A stretch of 23,280 bases of DNA from a virus, in IMG/VR virus record IMGVR_UViG_3300025769_000888, positions 1 through 23,280 of that record. The stretch is one strand, 5' to 3'. The translations under genes and the position numbers were made by a program. This document shows, one piece after another, positions 1 to 21,957 of the stretch. The notes beneath the pieces were generated by a model. The model was given only the letters and a program-made list of their open reading frames with translations. It made no database searches and was not told the DNA's origin. The first letter of the stretch is position 1, and each line of letters starts with the position of its first letter.

Positions 1-340
1 TAGTGTTTCCTAAGTCTCCACAATTTCTTAAATCTATAAAATTATAGTTTTCATCATAACAAGCAAATCCTATATGACCTGACCCAAGATTATTGTTATA
101 ATTTCTTTGATAGGTTTTCATTGATACAGAATGAATATAATACTTTGATGTATCTACAGGTATGAATTCATTACCTAGTATAGTAGTACCGTAAACATTA
201 GTACTCATAGCAAAGCATCCATCGCCACTTAAAGCATCATTGGTTGAATGAGAATATCCAGTAAAATTGGTATTGTCACCAGATTGTGCTTGACCATTAG
301 TATATAATCCGAAGGTAGGTCTTCCTGCTATTGCTCCCAT
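1..340 (-). CDS. Virion structural/adhesin-like protein, 3' end outside window
   Basis: The ATG at 338-340 opens a frame that stays open to the window edge, giving 113 residues beginning MGAIAGRPTFGLYTNG. The start shares one base with the stop of the upstream LamG-like gene (TAATG), so translation is probably coupled. The visible part is rich in Gly, Asn, Ser, Thr and Tyr, with segments such as NEFIPVDTSKYY and GSGHIGFACYDENYNFIDL. These look like a beta-sandwich from a phage receptor-binding or carbohydrate-binding protein. I recognise the general style from phage tail proteins but cannot assign a family. It is third in a run of small adhesin-like genes, which suggests a role at the tail fibre tip or in virion decoration. 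The function is inference; the open frame and the coupled start are seen directly. Confidence 0.6.
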   Translation of the reverse strand, partial: MGAIAGRPTFGLYTNGQAQSGDNTNFTGYSHSTNDALSGDGCFAMSTNVYGTTILGNEFIPVDTSKYYIHSVSMKTYQRNYNNNLGSGHIGFACYDENYNFIDLRNCGDLGNT

Positions 341-1026
341 TAGATTCCAAACCTTCCTCTAGTAGCATTAAAGTTTTGTTTGATTTCTTCGGATGATAAT
401 GCTCTATCGTATATCAACACAGAATAATGCACGCCGGAATATTGCCACTGAAAATTTTCATATCCAAATTGACCAATCGTAAGTTTATTACTACTATTAC
501 TTACAGTTTGATTTTGACCAGTAATATCATGAGATGATGTTAAAATTCCGTTGATGTATTGATTACCAGCAACATCTCTATCAAAAACAGCACAAAAATT
601 GTAATAGTTATTTTCAGATAGCACTGTAGTATCTCCCCAATGGGTATTTGTTGGAGAATCCAAATCGATACTGAATTTTGAAGATGTATTGAATGTAATG
701 CTGTATCCAGTAGACCCAGAAGCACCTTTTCCTATGAGCGTTCTCCATCCATTCACTGCCGCTGGTTTAGATGTTATACACAATGTAAAGTCACCTGTTC
801 CAAAGTCAAATGGCGTTGGATCATCACAGTATGCATATGTATCTATTCCGTTAAACACAAATCCTTCACCGTTAAAGACTGGACTATTCACCAATGTGGC
901 ATGATTATTGTGACCACTCAAATCTTTCCATACAGTTCCACTACCCGGATAACTTTTAGGATTAGCAGCATCTAAAGCAAGCACCAATCCATCAGTAACG
1001 ATTCTAGGATTATGATGAAGACTCAT
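340..1026 (-). CDS. LamG/concanavalin-like domain virion protein (copy 2)
   Basis: This 228-residue protein begins with a segment typical of LamG-type jelly-roll proteins: DGLVLALDAANPKSYPGSG (about residues 12-30), then WKDLSGHNNHATL. FNGIDTYAYCD follows near residue 58, then alternating beta-strand segments up to RALSSEEIKQNFNATRGRFGI at the C-terminus. Such domains bind carbohydrate or protein ligands and are common in phage tail fibres and capsid decorations. The ATG at 1024-1026 overlaps the stop of the preceding paralogue by four bases (ATGA). Both proteins share the opening pattern (V-x-DGLVxAxD) and end in the same nine residues, NATRGRFGI, so they look like a tandem duplication followed by divergence. 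No catalytic residues are apparent. The family assignment is fairly sure; which virion part carries it is inferred from the neighbouring fibre-like genes. Confidence 0.75.
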   Translation of the reverse strand: MSLHHNPRIVTDGLVLALDAANPKSYPGSGTVWKDLSGHNNHATLVNSPVFNGEGFVFNGIDTYAYCDDPTPFDFGTGDFTLCITSKPAAVNGWRTLIGKGASGSTGYSITFNTSSKFSIDLDSPTNTHWGDTTVLSENNYYNFCAVFDRDVAGNQYINGILTSSHDITGQNQTVSNSSNKLTIGQFGYENFQWQYSGVHYSVLIYDRALSSEEIKQNFNATRGRFGI

Positions 1027-1754
1027 ATACCGAATCTCCCTCTAGTAGCATTAATATTTTGGTTTACTTCTTCCTGAGTAAGAACACGGTCCCACATATG
1101 AACAAAGTCCATATTGCCATTCCAATTACCGCTTCTGTTTACCGTAGATCCTATTTTCAAAGCACCAGCATTTGAACCAATAGCAAAATCGCCAGTATCT
1201 CGTTCATCTACTAACCTATTACCGTTTGAGTCACATAGATATGTCTTTAAACCGTCTGTGGTATTTCTTTGATATGTTACTGTGTAAATCTGCCACGCCT
1301 GCCTATAATCGCCAGTAGTAGAACTTACAGTTGAGTAAACCGTAAATGCTTGAGATCCTATTCCCCATCTAGGTCCATCAGTCCCCCACCCAGTGCCAAA
1401 TACAAATCCATTAGTACCGTCCCAAGTGCTACCTGTCTCCTTTCCAAAAGCAGGATGGTCTATGTCTCCAGCATCACTAAATTCATGAGCAAACATCCAC
1501 GATCCTTGATTGCCTGTCGGTACTGTTATATTTACGTCTGGAAAATCTATAGTGCAAACTCTAGTTCCTCCGCCATTGAACAATACATGTCCATTGGTTC
1601 TAGTTAATGAGTTAGCTCCATTTTTTGTTCCAGAACCTCTTCCAACCAAGTCATAGTGTGTTGAAGAAGATCCATCCCACGACTTAGCATTCATACCATC
1701 CCATGCAAATACCAATCCATCTCTAACAACATTTGCTCCATACAGAGTTGCCAT
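1023..1754 (-). CDS. LamG/concanavalin-like domain virion protein (copy 1)
   Basis: This 243-residue protein is the upstream member of the LamG-like pair. It opens with VVRDGLVFAWDGMNAKSWDG (about residues 9-28), carries HVLFNGGGTRVCTIDFPD near residue 56 and LKIGSTVNRSGNWNGN near 196, and ends RVLTQEEVNQNINATRGRFGI. This is the usual course of a jelly-roll domain whose last strand is followed by a short helix and a conserved tail. The ATG at 1752-1754 has only a weak upstream GGA, and the preceding fibre gene stops 12 bases away, so translation may depend on ribosomes arriving from that gene. A virion adhesin or fibre-tip role is inferred from the fold and neighbours. The N-terminal half differs strongly from copy 2 while the tail is identical over nine residues. 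Confidence 0.75.
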   Translation of the reverse strand: MATLYGANVVRDGLVFAWDGMNAKSWDGSSSTHYDLVGRGSGTKNGANSLTRTNGHVLFNGGGTRVCTIDFPDVNITVPTGNQGSWMFAHEFSDAGDIDHPAFGKETGSTWDGTNGFVFGTGWGTDGPRWGIGSQAFTVYSTVSSTTGDYRQAWQIYTVTYQRNTTDGLKTYLCDSNGNRLVDERDTGDFAIGSNAGALKIGSTVNRSGNWNGNMDFVHMWDRVLTQEEVNQNINATRGRFGI

Positions 1755-10548: not shown

Positions 10549-10572
10549 AAAAAAGCCCCCTTTCGGGGGCTT
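10549..10572 (-). terminator. Rho-independent terminator after hsp20
   Basis: On the minus strand the stem AAGCCCCC (rc of 10565-10572) pairs with GGGGGCTT (rc of 10553-10560) around a GAAA loop, and a run of six Ts follows (rc of 10549-10554). It lies just past the hsp20 stop and ends about 45 bases before the gp43 start, separating hsp20 from the polymerase operon. Confidence 0.9.
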
Positions 10573-10579
10573 AGTGTTT

Positions 10580-11008
10580 TTACGACTCTATTTTATATTC
10601 TTTTGGTCGTTGAGCTTCAGGAATATTTTTGACAAGCTTGATCTCTAAAATACCTTGTCTTAACGTCACCGAACTTACCTCGACGTACTCTCCCAATGTA
10701 AACTTCTTTTCGAAATTCTTCATCGAGATGCCACGATGATGGTAACTGTAATCTATCTCACTGCCTTCTTCTTTCTGTCTCTCGCCTGTAACGGTCAAGA
10801 TCCTATTAGCAGTAGACCCATCATGAACAACCTTTAACTCACTTTCTGCAAATCCAGAAACAGCAAACTGAATGATGAAATTTTGTTCGTCTGTTTCAAT
10901 GATGTTGTATGGTGGATAATTAGGTTGTTGTGAGGACAAATTTTCAAGGGTTTCTAATGTTTTTTCTAAACCAATGAAAAACGGCGAATTGAAATATACC
11001 TTGTTCAT
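10580..11008 (-). CDS. hsp20: Small heat-shock protein, Hsp20/alpha-crystallin family
   Basis: Small heat-shock proteins are ATP-independent holdases; marine T4-like phages often carry one. The 142-residue product has an alpha-crystallin beta-sandwich: PPYNIIETDEQNFIIQFAVSG (strand pair, about 30-50), ELKVVHDG, ILTVTGERQKEEG, a HHRGISMKNFEKKFTLGEYVE region, and the family-typical ASVTLRQGILEIKL-like end motif (here VSSVTLRQGILEIKLVK) before a basic tail. The frame is open further upstream to a methionine at 11059, but that lies in a hairpin. The ATG at 11006-11008 has AAGGAG seven bases upstream and is the better start. It has an exact late promoter (11070-11077) and terminators on both sides, so it is probably a single-gene late transcript that helps virion protein folding. 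Confidence 0.93.
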   Translation of the reverse strand: MNKVYFNSPFFIGLEKTLETLENLSSQQPNYPPYNIIETDEQNFIIQFAVSGFAESELKVVHDGSTANRILTVTGERQKEEGSEIDYSYHHRGISMKNFEKKFTLGEYVEVSSVTLRQGILEIKLVKNIPEAQRPKEYKIES

Positions 11009-11030
11009 ATACTTTCTCCTTGTATTAAGC

Positions 11031-11070
11031 AAAAAAGAACCATTGAACCCTTTCGGCATTCAATGGTTCT
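11031..11070 (-). terminator. Terminator hairpin between regA and hsp20, overlapped by a late promoter
   Basis: A perfect 12-base inverted repeat (11059-11070 with 11036-11047; AGAACCATTGAA and its complement on the minus strand) encloses an 11-base loop and is followed by six Ts (rc of 11031-11036). This is a good Rho-independent terminator for the clamp-loader/regA transcript. Its 5' arm starts in the last base of the late promoter at 11070-11077, so transcripts begun there would lack about half of that arm. Confidence 0.85.
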
Positions 11071-11077
11071 ATTTATA
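11070..11077 (-). promoter_or_regulatory. T4-type late promoter TATAAATA before hsp20
   Basis: The minus strand reads TATAAATA, the exact late consensus. From the usual spacing, transcription should start near 11063-11064, inside the 5' arm of the terminator hairpin, about 55 bases upstream of the hsp20 ATG. The leader keeps the AAGGAG site at 11016-11021. Confidence 0.8.
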
Positions 11078-11094: not shown

Positions 11095-11502
11095 TCAAGG
11101 TATCTTTTTAGAGCCTATGTTATACTTCGGGACCAAATCCCATTGGTCTTTTTCTTTGTGTGGGACCACTTTGATCTGGCTCATGGAAGCAACAGGTGCC
11201 TTTGTCTTCTCTGGATCTTTAACTTTCAGGAGGTTCCATTCTGCAAGAAGATTGGCAATAGTATTGAGTCTGCCTGTATCGTTTTCTTCCATATTGGAGG
11301 GTTTGCCATCTAAAGCAAACATTTGCTTGAAATGGACAATATAATACTTACCCTGCTTATGGAGAATATGACAGGACTGGAAAAGCTTTTTTTCCTTCCT
11401 AGAGGATACACCTATTCTAGTAAGTGTCTCTCTGATTTTCCGAAAGTCGTCTTCACTTTCAAGATCAACCTCAACAAACGAATCAATAATATCTGCGTTC
11501 AT
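11095..11502 (-). CDS. regA: RegA translational repressor
   Basis: RegA binds start regions of early phage mRNAs, including its own in T4, and blocks translation. The 135-residue protein matches T4 RegA clearly: FRKIRETLTRIGVSSRKEKK (about 20-39), LFQSCHILHKQGKYYIVHFK (about 40-59) and, near the end, WDLVPKYNIGS. T4 has the nearly identical YQSCHILQKKGLYYIVHFK and LVPKYTIGN. The ATG overlaps the gp62 stop by four bases (ATGA), with GGTGGGG upstream. The gene order gp44-gp62-regA is as in T4. An hsp20 gene with its own promoter separates regA from gp43, whereas in T4 gp43 follows regA directly. Confidence 0.94.
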   Translation of the reverse strand: MNADIIDSFVEVDLESEDDFRKIRETLTRIGVSSRKEKKLFQSCHILHKQGKYYIVHFKQMFALDGKPSNMEENDTGRLNTIANLLAEWNLLKVKDPEKTKAPVASMSQIKVVPHKEKDQWDLVPKYNIGSKKIP

Positions 11503-17287: not shown

Positions 17288-18342
17288 TATTCTGCATTCA
17301 TTGCCTTGTAGTAAATGTCATGAATTTTGGTTTTGAGCTTATCAAGATCAACATCCGTTTCGATAAGCCCAATGTACTTGTCAATAATCTCTTTCGTGTT
17401 TTCAATATTTTCTACATCTACGTCTGAACCATTCTCTTGATATATCATAGTCTCGTCAATGATTTTTACCTCATACGGAGAGAAAGATTCTATCTGACTA
17501 ATAAAGTCGTCAAACTCCTCCACATCAACTTTCTCTTTGACAACAACACGAACGTAATGATCTTTAACACTTCCCTTTGTCACTGTGTTTCTAAAGTGAT
17601 CTGTGCCGTCTACGATAAACTTGGTGTAGATCGAATAAGGGTTCTCGATGAAGGTTAACTCTAAAGTGTCTGTGTCTAGAAGGTGGAATCCCTTTACAAA
17701 ACCGTAGTCCGACCAGTTCATTTGATAAGGACAACCAAGATAGTAGATGCCGTTACTGTCTGATTTGTGGTGAAAGTGGCCGGAAAGAGTTTTCTCAAAC
17801 TTCTTGAAGATAGATGAACTAAGACCTTCTTTACTAAGTTGACCCGGCTGCATAGTGAAACCTTCGATCTCAAGATGGCCGATACACAAACGAGACTCAG
17901 ACAGTTTAATCATGTCCATGCTCTGTTTGTGGTTGTCTTTACAAATCCAAGGAAGGTACAAAGTCGGAACACCAAAAAGATCCACCTCTTCGGGATCTTT
18001 GTAGAAGTTGATGTTCTTATATCTTCTGACAACCTCATCGATTGCATTGATCTGGTTCGTGTTCTTGTAGAACGTGTCATGATTGCCGACAATGATGTCC
18101 ATCTCCATTCCCATGTCCTCTAAGGGCTGAAGGAATGTCTTCCGCAGGTTATGTGCTGTCAGAAAGTTGATGTATTTTCTACGATCTACAACATCACCAA
18201 GATGGACTACCTTGTCGATCTTATTTTTCTTCAGGTACGGAAAAAATACATTGTCAAAAAATTTTGCAAAGTAGCTGTGATAGTTAACATTATCATTTCT
18301 GACGCCATAGTGCGTGTCAGCAATCAAAACAATTTTAGCCAT
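17287..18342 (-). CDS. 47: Recombination endonuclease subunit gp47 (Mre11/SbcD-like)
   Basis: The nuclease partner of gp46. The 351-residue protein carries the full metallophosphoesterase set: D9-x-H11 in IADTHYG, GDVVDRR (49-55), GNHD (86-89), GHLE (155-158) and GHFHH (188-192). The C-terminal third lacks motifs and probably binds gp46. The ATG overlaps the gp55 stop region by eight bases (18335-18342), and the gene runs directly into gp46. The order uvsW-gp55-gp47-gp46 is one I associate with marine T4-like genomes, though I could not check this here. Confidence 0.96.
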   Translation of the reverse strand: MAKIVLIADTHYGVRNDNVNYHSYFAKFFDNVFFPYLKKNKIDKVVHLGDVVDRRKYINFLTAHNLRKTFLQPLEDMGMEMDIIVGNHDTFYKNTNQINAIDEVVRRYKNINFYKDPEEVDLFGVPTLYLPWICKDNHKQSMDMIKLSESRLCIGHLEIEGFTMQPGQLSKEGLSSSIFKKFEKTLSGHFHHKSDSNGIYYLGCPYQMNWSDYGFVKGFHLLDTDTLELTFIENPYSIYTKFIVDGTDHFRNTVTKGSVKDHYVRVVVKEKVDVEEFDDFISQIESFSPYEVKIIDETMIYQENGSDVDVENIENTKEIIDKYIGLIETDVDLDKLKTKIHDIYYKAMNAE

Positions 18343-18835
18343 TCTTTTCTTCGTGCTTCTTCTCTAGTTCATCCATGTAGTCGTTCTGGATATATGTGTC
18401 AGCATACGGCAAAGTGGCTTTATCGGAAAGAGAATAATCGACAAGCTCCTGATTTACGTACTTATGGTCGTAGTATTTTTTCTTGATCAAAAGAAGCTTT
18501 TTCTCTTTCTCAATTTTTCTAATGAAAGCATTCCAGATGATCTGTGTAAAATAGGCAAAAGGGTTGCTCCCCTTTGCAGGATCAAATTTCATTACAGCCT
18601 CAAATGCATTCTCCACACCGTCCCCAATCATGTCGTCTTTGAAGATGTAACCAGAGTAGTTTGGCTTGGTCGCCAACCTAGTAGCAATGGTCTGTAGACA
18701 GATGGCAATATCATTGGGAATAATCGGTCTCTCTCTTTCCTCTTTGTCTGCCTCATAGCATTCTTTCTGATACTCAACAAGTCTTAGGTAAAATGTTTTG
18801 TTATCAATATAGTTGACTGGCTTTTTCTTTTTCAT
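18335..18835 (-). CDS. 55: Late-transcription sigma factor gp55
   Basis: gp55 is the small divergent sigma that directs host RNA polymerase to TATAAATA late promoters. The 166-residue product matches T4 gp55 in PNYSGYIFKDDMIGDGVENA (about 68-87; T4 [21 protein letters not shown]) and FDPAKGSNPFAYFTQIIWNAF (about 93-113), the region-2-like core, followed by RKIEKEKKLL. Its basic N-terminus and acidic C-terminus are as expected; in T4 the C-terminus contacts the gp45 clamp. It overlaps uvsW by four bases (ATGA). The exact TATAAATA elements in this window are its predicted targets. Confidence 0.94.
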   Translation of the reverse strand: MKKKKPVNYIDNKTFYLRLVEYQKECYEADKEERERPIIPNDIAICLQTIATRLATKPNYSGYIFKDDMIGDGVENAFEAVMKFDPAKGSNPFAYFTQIIWNAFIRKIEKEKKLLLIKKKYYDHKYVNQELVDYSLSDKATLPYADTYIQNDYMDELEKKHEEKNG

Positions 18836-21232: not shown

Positions 21233-21957
21233 TATCTGTAATACTGTACCAGTTTCTTAGGCTTTTTCTTTTTTGGTCGAGCCATTTTAGCAAGCTGATA
21301 AGCACCGACAGTTCCTAAAGCACCGCCCAAAGCACCACCAAGACCAGCACCCACAATACCAAACCCCGGAACAGGACTTGCCATTCCCAAAGCCTTTCCA
21401 AGAGCAGATCCAATTTTCTGCCCACCAGCAAGACCTGCTGTATAACCTAAAGCACCTCCTGTAATTCCTCCAGCAGTAGATGCTAATTGAGAAACAGTGT
21501 ATTGTGGAGCATAAGGATCAAAATCCACTTGCTTATAGTAGAGGTCATCTTTGTCTCTATCTTTTCCTGCTTCTTCTAATGCCTTTTTCTTTTTACGATC
21601 ACGTAATTTCTGTCTTAAAAGTTCAAGACCTAAAGCAGCACCTCCACCAATAAGAGCACCTTGTAAAGGTTTAACTGCAGCTCTTGCAGCGATTCCTCTT
21701 TTCGTCATATTTTCTACTTTTTTGTAGTCATATGGAGTTCCGGCTATACTTGGATCTGCTTGAATTTTTTTAGCCACATTTAAAGCAGTATCTTGATAAT
21801 GTTTAATTAAATTTTTTGGTGTCAAAGTTTTCTTTGCAACAATACCGCCAGTGAGAGCGCCACCAGCTAAGGCAGCAGCACCTAATCTATACAAGTCTCT
21901 TCTTTTTTTCTTTTTTTCATCTGTCTGTTCTTGAAGAATTAAATTTGAATAAGACAT
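21232..21957 (-). CDS. Glycine-zipper-rich basic protein of unknown function
   Basis: I do not recognise this 241-residue protein. A polar start with KKKKRR (15-20) leads to a small-residue hydrophobic stretch, RLGAAALAGGALTGGIVA (24-41). A second lies near 98-114 (PLQGALIGGGAALGLELL), flanked by a basic helix RQKLRDRKKKKAL. Then comes a long Gly/Ala-rich segment, 159-223, with GxxxG spacings typical of glycine-zipper membrane or pore-forming segments. The end is very basic (RPKKKKPKKLVQYYR). Such proteins can be virion-internal, membrane-penetrating or holin-like. It has its own exact late promoter and ribosome site GGTGGAG, and follows the capsid gene, suggesting a virion or late lysis/ejection role. 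Function is unproved. Confidence 0.75.
   Translation of the reverse strand: MSYSNLILQEQTDEKKKKRRDLYRLGAAALAGGALTGGIVAKKTLTPKNLIKHYQDTALNVAKKIQADPSIAGTPYDYKKVENMTKRGIAARAAVKPLQGALIGGGAALGLELLRQKLRDRKKKKALEEAGKDRDKDDLYYKQVDFDPYAPQYTVSQLASTAGGITGGALGYTAGLAGGQKIGSALGKALGMASPVPGFGIVGAGLGGALGGALGTVGAYQLAKMARPKKKKPKKLVQYYR

Follow-up and report, generated by a model that had tools for sequence, protein, structure and literature searches.

In a marine, T4-like phage, the short region between regA and hsp20 likely forms the 5′ leader of a monocistronic hsp20 mRNA made late, i.e., a ROSE-like RNA thermometer placed under a late promoter, the first hairpin of which (hairpin I) is lengthened into a terminator-like stem in one clade. 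The compared sequences show a conserved two-hairpin structure, a ROSE motif, a lock between the transcription start (+1) and hairpin I, and conservation of the stem extension within the clade; the leader is called ROSE-like from its sequence and predicted structure, and it is predicted to work as a thermometer. Throughout, the window is the whole 23,280-nucleotide stretch that was analyzed (IMG/VR record IMGVR_UViG_3300025769_000888); the genes around the finding are all on its minus strand, as are the features described below unless stated otherwise. Briefly, in the mechanism we propose, the gp55 late sigma factor would start hsp20 transcription at 11064, the first base of hairpin I, and a second hairpin (hairpin II) would mask the Shine-Dalgarno sequence via U(U/C)GCU around an unpaired G, holding hsp20 translation down in the cold and releasing it on warming. 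In the window's clade, read-through RNA from the regA operon would end ahead of hsp20 at a strong intrinsic terminator that it folds, and RNA begun at the late promoter would be unable to fold the full terminator.

Locus, late promoter and predicted start

The regA gene (11095-11502; PHROG 242, E 1.3e-57) closes the upstream 45-44-62-regA cluster with its stop at 11095, and hsp20, encoding a small heat-shock protein of 142 amino acids (10580-11008; PHROG 432, E 6.6e-35), begins with an ATG at 11008. A terminator (AAGCCCCCGAAAGGGGGCTT followed by TTTT, 10553-10572) stands 3′ of hsp20, which makes the gene a single-gene unit ahead of gp43; a strong terminator directly 3′ of hsp20 is present in all tested members of the window's clade (the window, L002-L011 and L018), and in 20/97 cases overall versus 0/97 shuffled. 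Two observations are recorded from elsewhere. Two adjacent genes of 228 and 243 amino acids at 340-1754 (minus strand), both matching phrog_8510 (virion structural protein) and phrog_24074, are likely a tandem duplication; and in many marine contigs (L042, L045, L047, L048 and others) tRNA-like sequences were seen by eye just after the regA region, before a different gene.

The T4-type late promoter octamer TATAAATA is present as an exact match at 11070-11077 with hsp20 downstream, and the genome encodes a gp55-like late sigma factor (18335-18835; PHROG 234, E 1.7e-46), the predicted reader of the octamer, i.e., both parts of a T4-type late promoter system are found. The exact octamer occurs four times in the window (1.1 expected), each time on the coding strand. 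It is kept throughout the window's clade, and TATAAATA or TATATATA is found in most other phage hsp20 leaders. It shares one base with the 5′ arm of a terminator-like 12-bp hairpin of the read-through RNA (11036-11070), with arms AGAACCATTGAA (11070-11059) and TTCAATGGTTCT (11047-11036) and a loop, TGCCGAAAGGG, that contains two further pairs (CC/GG). This stem is the longest inverted repeat of the window; its folding energy is -18.6 kcal/mol (z -5.8) for the transcribed strand and -17 kcal/mol (z -5.4; 0/200 shuffles as good) for the plus-strand copy. The U6 (T6) run at 11031-11036, the first T of which closes the stem, is both the tail of this hairpin and the 5′ strand of hairpin II. The preliminary description had reported a perfect 12-bp hairpin with a U-run after regA, and an exact late octamer overlapping the first base of the 5′ arm; both are confirmed at these positions.

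The late octamer of T4 occupies -13 to -6 (PMC1524935), which puts +1 at 11064, six bases into the 5′ arm, where a gp55-dependent late start would lie. RNA from 11064 folds at -6.7 kcal/mol and keeps a 6-bp hairpin with the +1 base paired, and five unpaired bases separate this stem from the U-run. The earlier suggestion that late RNA cannot form the full stem holds with T4 spacing (-6.7 versus -18.6 kcal/mol), but the late RNA is not hairpin-free. The predicted +1 draws, besides octamer spacing, on a pairing profile of 41 distinct leaders, for which +1 was defined as the sixth base after the octamer and a shuffled control was run. Pairing of the 5′ arm is 0.88 at +1, 0.90 at +2, and 0.97-1.00 further in; at -1 it is 0.27 versus 0.33 shuffled, and it stays near the shuffled value further upstream. 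Because pairing is high from +1 and at chance level just upstream, the mRNA seemingly begins at the base of hairpin I, and in the hsp20-leader phages this boundary, as read from the alignment, estimates the late start independently and by comparison. The promoter would then abut the hairpin because the message starts with hairpin I, not because transcription starts generally split terminators.

The ROSE-like two-hairpin leader and its family

ROSE elements are defined by a U(U/C)GCU motif that faces the Shine-Dalgarno sequence with an unpaired G (PMC3669281), and in Pseudomonas the small heat-shock gene ibpA is under the control of a short form with two hairpins (PMC3669281, PMC11182007). The window element likewise precedes a small heat-shock gene (hsp20, PHROG 432) within its 5′ leader and has two hairpins, within the two to four, with a stable 5′ one, that characterize ROSE. 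In the late RNA, hairpin I (11042-11064) reads AUUGAA-U.G-(bulged G)-CC-GAAA-GG-UUCAAU, the architecture of hairpin I in Rfam ROSE_3. Hairpin II (11012-11036) pairs U6-G-CUU with AAG-G-AGAAAG and covers the Shine-Dalgarno sequence AAGGAG of hsp20 (11016-11021); the equivalent helix is paired in the family. Its UUGCUU (11027-11032), which pairs with AAGGAG in the window, corresponds to the ROSE U(U/C)GCU motif as an anti-Shine-Dalgarno strand with the unpaired G at 11030. Please note that the 3′ end of the long form of hairpin I, at 11036, lies 14 nt ahead of AAGGAG at 11021, and that the second hairpin over the ribosome site had been missed in the preliminary description.

The likeness to Pseudomonas ibpA ROSE (RF02523, ROSE_3; PMC3669281) thus covers the position before a small heat-shock gene, the stable hairpin I, the core of which (GGAUGCCGAA..UCGGGUCC) is near-identical in ROSE_3 and many phage leaders, and the pairing of U(U/C)GCU with the Shine-Dalgarno sequence around an unpaired G in hairpin II. 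Unlike ROSE_3, the phage leaders have a gp55-type late promoter with +1 at the base of hairpin I, the window stays below the Rfam cut-off, and in the window's clade hairpin I is terminator-like as well.

Searching viral contigs with regA and hsp20 gathered about 100 distinct hsp20 leaders. Most of them share a common layout: TATAAATA or TATATATA, about 5 nt, then a hairpin of the form P1 - U.G - bulged G - C.. / ..G - P1', and on the 3′ side a short U-rich linker, CUUGCU or CUCGCU, AGGAG, and the hsp20 ATG. The 41 phage leaders that were aligned all have CTTGCT, and hairpin II is U-rich in the window's clade and mixed in the other leaders. In pair counts on 59 leaders, 94% of cells are paired, and 182 cells are changed on both sides versus 52.7 +/- 5.8 in shuffled and 9-29 in slid controls. 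In these counts the hairpin I core and hairpin II are each 99.5% paired, hairpin II in 57 leaders, and both ends of hairpin II covary around the invariant ROSE core. A 12-sequence subset served as the seed alignment, chosen because the first alignment misaligned the Shine-Dalgarno sequence; it was not fitted to a model, and its pair counts agree with those of the 59-leader set. In a partial run of temperature folding, the Shine-Dalgarno sequence of the window's late RNA was mostly paired at all temperatures, other leaders varied, and no clean melting appeared, from models that treat the ROSE core badly.

Two covariance models were built, R1 from 12 leaders and R2 from 59; neither included leaders of the window's clade. 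Each gave a single match in the 23-kb window, and in both cases it is the hsp20 leader (R2: 11067-11006, 23.2 bits, E 2.2e-4; R1: E 0.0017). R2 matched in 18/20 phage records searched whole, and wherever the place of hsp20 is known (S-PM2, Melnitz, C48C1, S-CRM01, S-CREM1, HTVC115P) its best match is the hsp20 leader. The leader is present in cyanophages (S-PM2), one methylophage and one pelagiphage, and in S-CAM3 the motif is visible by eye, together with a weak model hit. R2 gave no match at E <= 1 in L009, the closest divergent sister of the window. The Rfam model ROSE_3 (RF02523) had no match in the window at E <= 1, its curated cut-off of 43 bits not being reached, and an Rfam scan of the window alone returned weak or opposite-strand matches only, ROSE not among them. 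Against 20 phage loci, ROSE_3 matched in 7, below the cut-off and within the hsp20 leader; in a per-genome search it scored 46.1 bits in G012 (the contig of L124), the only score above 43 bits, and within the window's clade it scored 27.8 bits (E 2.8e-6) in the contig of L010 and 17.6 bits (E 0.021) in that of L009. Since the window is below the ROSE_3 cut-off, we name the element ROSE-like and not a member of RF02523; the lack of a ROSE_3 match in the window, together with the failure of R2 in L009, makes the window's clade an outlier of the family, near the limit of what R2 recognizes.

Weak matches also come from related hsp20 genes of bacteria (Hyphomonadaceae, Robiginitomaculum), and a bacterial origin of the element, together with the gene, may thus be considered. 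Among contigs filed as bacterial, several of the strongest matches (L301, L289, L294, L295) carry phage-type TATAAATA or TATATATA; these may be phage sequence, perhaps binned with bacteria. Similar hairpins with UCGCUU were also observed in L254 (HTVC115P), L092, L093 and L096, with a sigma70-like promoter in place of the late octamer, i.e., the leader is not bound to a single promoter class.

The extended stem and the alternatives

The stem in the window's clade continues six pairs upstream of +1 and reaches the last octamer base (-6), with the U6 run after it. Promoter, stem and U-run are identical save one loop base in L002-L008 and L018, and they are kept with compensatory changes in L009-L011. 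The extension and U-run of L009 are identical to those of the window despite a third-codon-position identity of 60% in hsp20 and 48% in regA, and the extended stem of L010/L011 is largely paired, with one compensatory change upstream of +1. With three known variants of the extended stem and one compensatory change upstream of +1, selection there is suggestive only, and since the U-run is used by hairpin II and would also be the terminator tail, its conservation has two possible causes.

As in intrinsic (Rho-independent) terminators, a stable, GC-containing stem (-18.6 kcal/mol) is followed at once by a U-run (U6) in the window's clade; unlike in ordinary ones, a promoter octamer reaches into the 5′ arm, and a conserved regulatory hairpin is what the stem extends. 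An energy-based scan found the leader hairpin terminator-like in the window, L009, L010 and L011, plus the unrelated L014, L118, L126 and L161, and a search upstream found terminator-like folds in 15/99 leaders versus 1/99 shuffled. Most members of the leader family have no terminator at the leader. In S-PM2 a terminator of its own stands after regA and ahead of the hsp20 leader, i.e., insulation of hsp20 from the regA operon recurs there in another form. Given its terminator score and its conservation in the clade, it is plausible that the full hairpin stops read-through from the clamp-loader operon, and a time switch on top of the translational thermometer is thus plausible in the window's clade; early RNA would terminate there and late RNA would escape. 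A distant hsp20 lineage (L014, L019, L023), in which TATATATA touches a long GAGTGTGGTAT..ATACCACACTC hairpin followed by TTTT, seems to be a separate instance of the window-type extension.

How general a late promoter inside a hairpin may be was examined in eleven related phage records and the window, where the geometry is rare, with 10/880 octamers versus 9/1760 displaced positions. The idea of a general device in related phages, i.e., a late promoter inside a terminator, was rejected, the geometry being only about twice as frequent as in the displaced control. A pattern scan of viral contigs returned 17 matches, mostly terminators without a recognized gene start downstream. Before endolysin-like genes (products MAKENFEDCL...HHEGGYVNHPKDPGGETN), TATAAATA abuts a GGACG..CGTCC hairpin in L384 (about 549-603), L385, L388 and L389, and also in L044 (6582-6636) and L079 (4123-4179). 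Four distinct leaders of this kind have an octamer-abutting hairpin, two have a long U-run, and one compensatory change separates leaders; they are suggestive as further cases of the geometry, and their matches to the ROSE models are weak or none. Within the window itself, a terminator hairpin at 22018-21986 (minus strand), between the major head protein gene and the next ORF, at 21957, has a T-run that leads straight into another exact TATAAATA (TTTTTTATAAATA), i.e., terminator then promoter, the reverse of the order at hsp20.

The preliminary description had read the hsp20 element as a plain intrinsic terminator after regA with a late promoter inside it, i.e., a time switch with no thermometer. 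The terminator-like fold with its U-run speaks for this, as do the similar octamer-overlapping hairpins before the endolysin-like gene in L384, L385, L388 and L389. Yet such a switch leaves the bulged G, UUGCUU and hairpin II unexplained, as well as the match to a family that mostly lacks the U-run and the extension, and we regard it as unlikely, although the most probable of the alternatives. The terminator reading thus stands insofar as the hairpin scores as one and is conserved in the window's clade, but the hairpin is seemingly in the first place hairpin I of a ROSE-like leader, found also in phages without the extension or U-run. Next comes the proposal that the +1 hairpin mainly shields late hsp20 mRNA from decay, with hairpin II weak or incidental. 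It would account for a hairpin that begins at +1, and for the endolysin-like leaders, which also open with a hairpin near +1 and match the ROSE models weakly or not at all; it needs, however, neither a 99.5%-paired hairpin II with covarying ends nor an invariant CTTGCT, which leaves it improbable.

Control of the type described for T4 e, soc and I-TevI, in which the ribosome site is hidden in a hairpin of the long early RNA and not in the late RNA, is very unlikely here. The logic is shared with T4 e, soc, 49 and I-TevI (PMC3014915, PMC2988022), i.e., the long early RNA can form a hairpin whose 5′ strand contains the late promoter, and a late start removes that strand. However, the T4 hairpins hide a ribosome site and act on translation, whereas the long hairpin of the window looks like a terminator and does not sequester the ribosome site: the Shine-Dalgarno sequence is outside hairpin I, and hairpin II, which bears it, lies entirely 3′ of +1, where both RNAs are able to fold it. 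A merely accidental overlap between a promoter and a standard terminator within a short intergenic gap has in its favor a geometry only about twice as frequent across genomes as at displaced positions, and is hardly credible given the clade conservation with compensatory changes and a promoter-hairpin register that is fixed across the leader family, as tested.

Phage thermometers and hsp20 biology

Thermometers on phage genes have been described for lambda cIII, SPbeta blyA (fourU) and a Caudoviricetes sigma70 (fourU) (PMC10586365, PMC11182007), blyA being counted as only the second known phage RNA thermometer (PMC10586365, PMC11182007); the leader proposed here would be likewise a thermometer on a phage gene, and for none of these three do reports name a ROSE type, a heat-shock gene or a T4-like phage. 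The literature that we searched, with subscription literature mostly outside the search, described no ROSE element or other thermometer on a phage hsp20, and in it we found no description of translational control of hsp20 in T4-like cyanophages. The published Rfam annotation of S-CREM1 lists abiF, wcaG, manA and glnA only; the annotated glnA (glutamine) riboswitch of that phage occupies the opposite strand of the regA-hsp20 gap (L256, 1785-1883). A sequence before S-PM2d hsp20, ATTCAAACTCGCTTAAATA, is listed as a putative Pho box (PMC10976474), and it coincides with the ROSE anti-Shine-Dalgarno strand (L252, about 2416-2476, i.e., S-PM2 96136-96196). If the conserved thermometer is true, this annotation would be corrected to the anti-Shine-Dalgarno strand of the thermometer.

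T4-like cyanophages have hsp20 among their core genes (PMC3037559). We lean neither way on the broadest statement, i.e., that T4-like phages infecting cyanobacteria, SAR11 and methylotrophs have a ROSE-class thermometer on this gene with the late start locked to its first base, that hairpin I of one lineage also terminates upstream RNA only, and that a single 60-nt sequence there would set the time (late) as well as the warmth at which hsp20 is expressed. If the conserved thermometer is true, a new class would join the handful of known phage RNA thermometers, and abundant marine phages would sense temperature in late infection.
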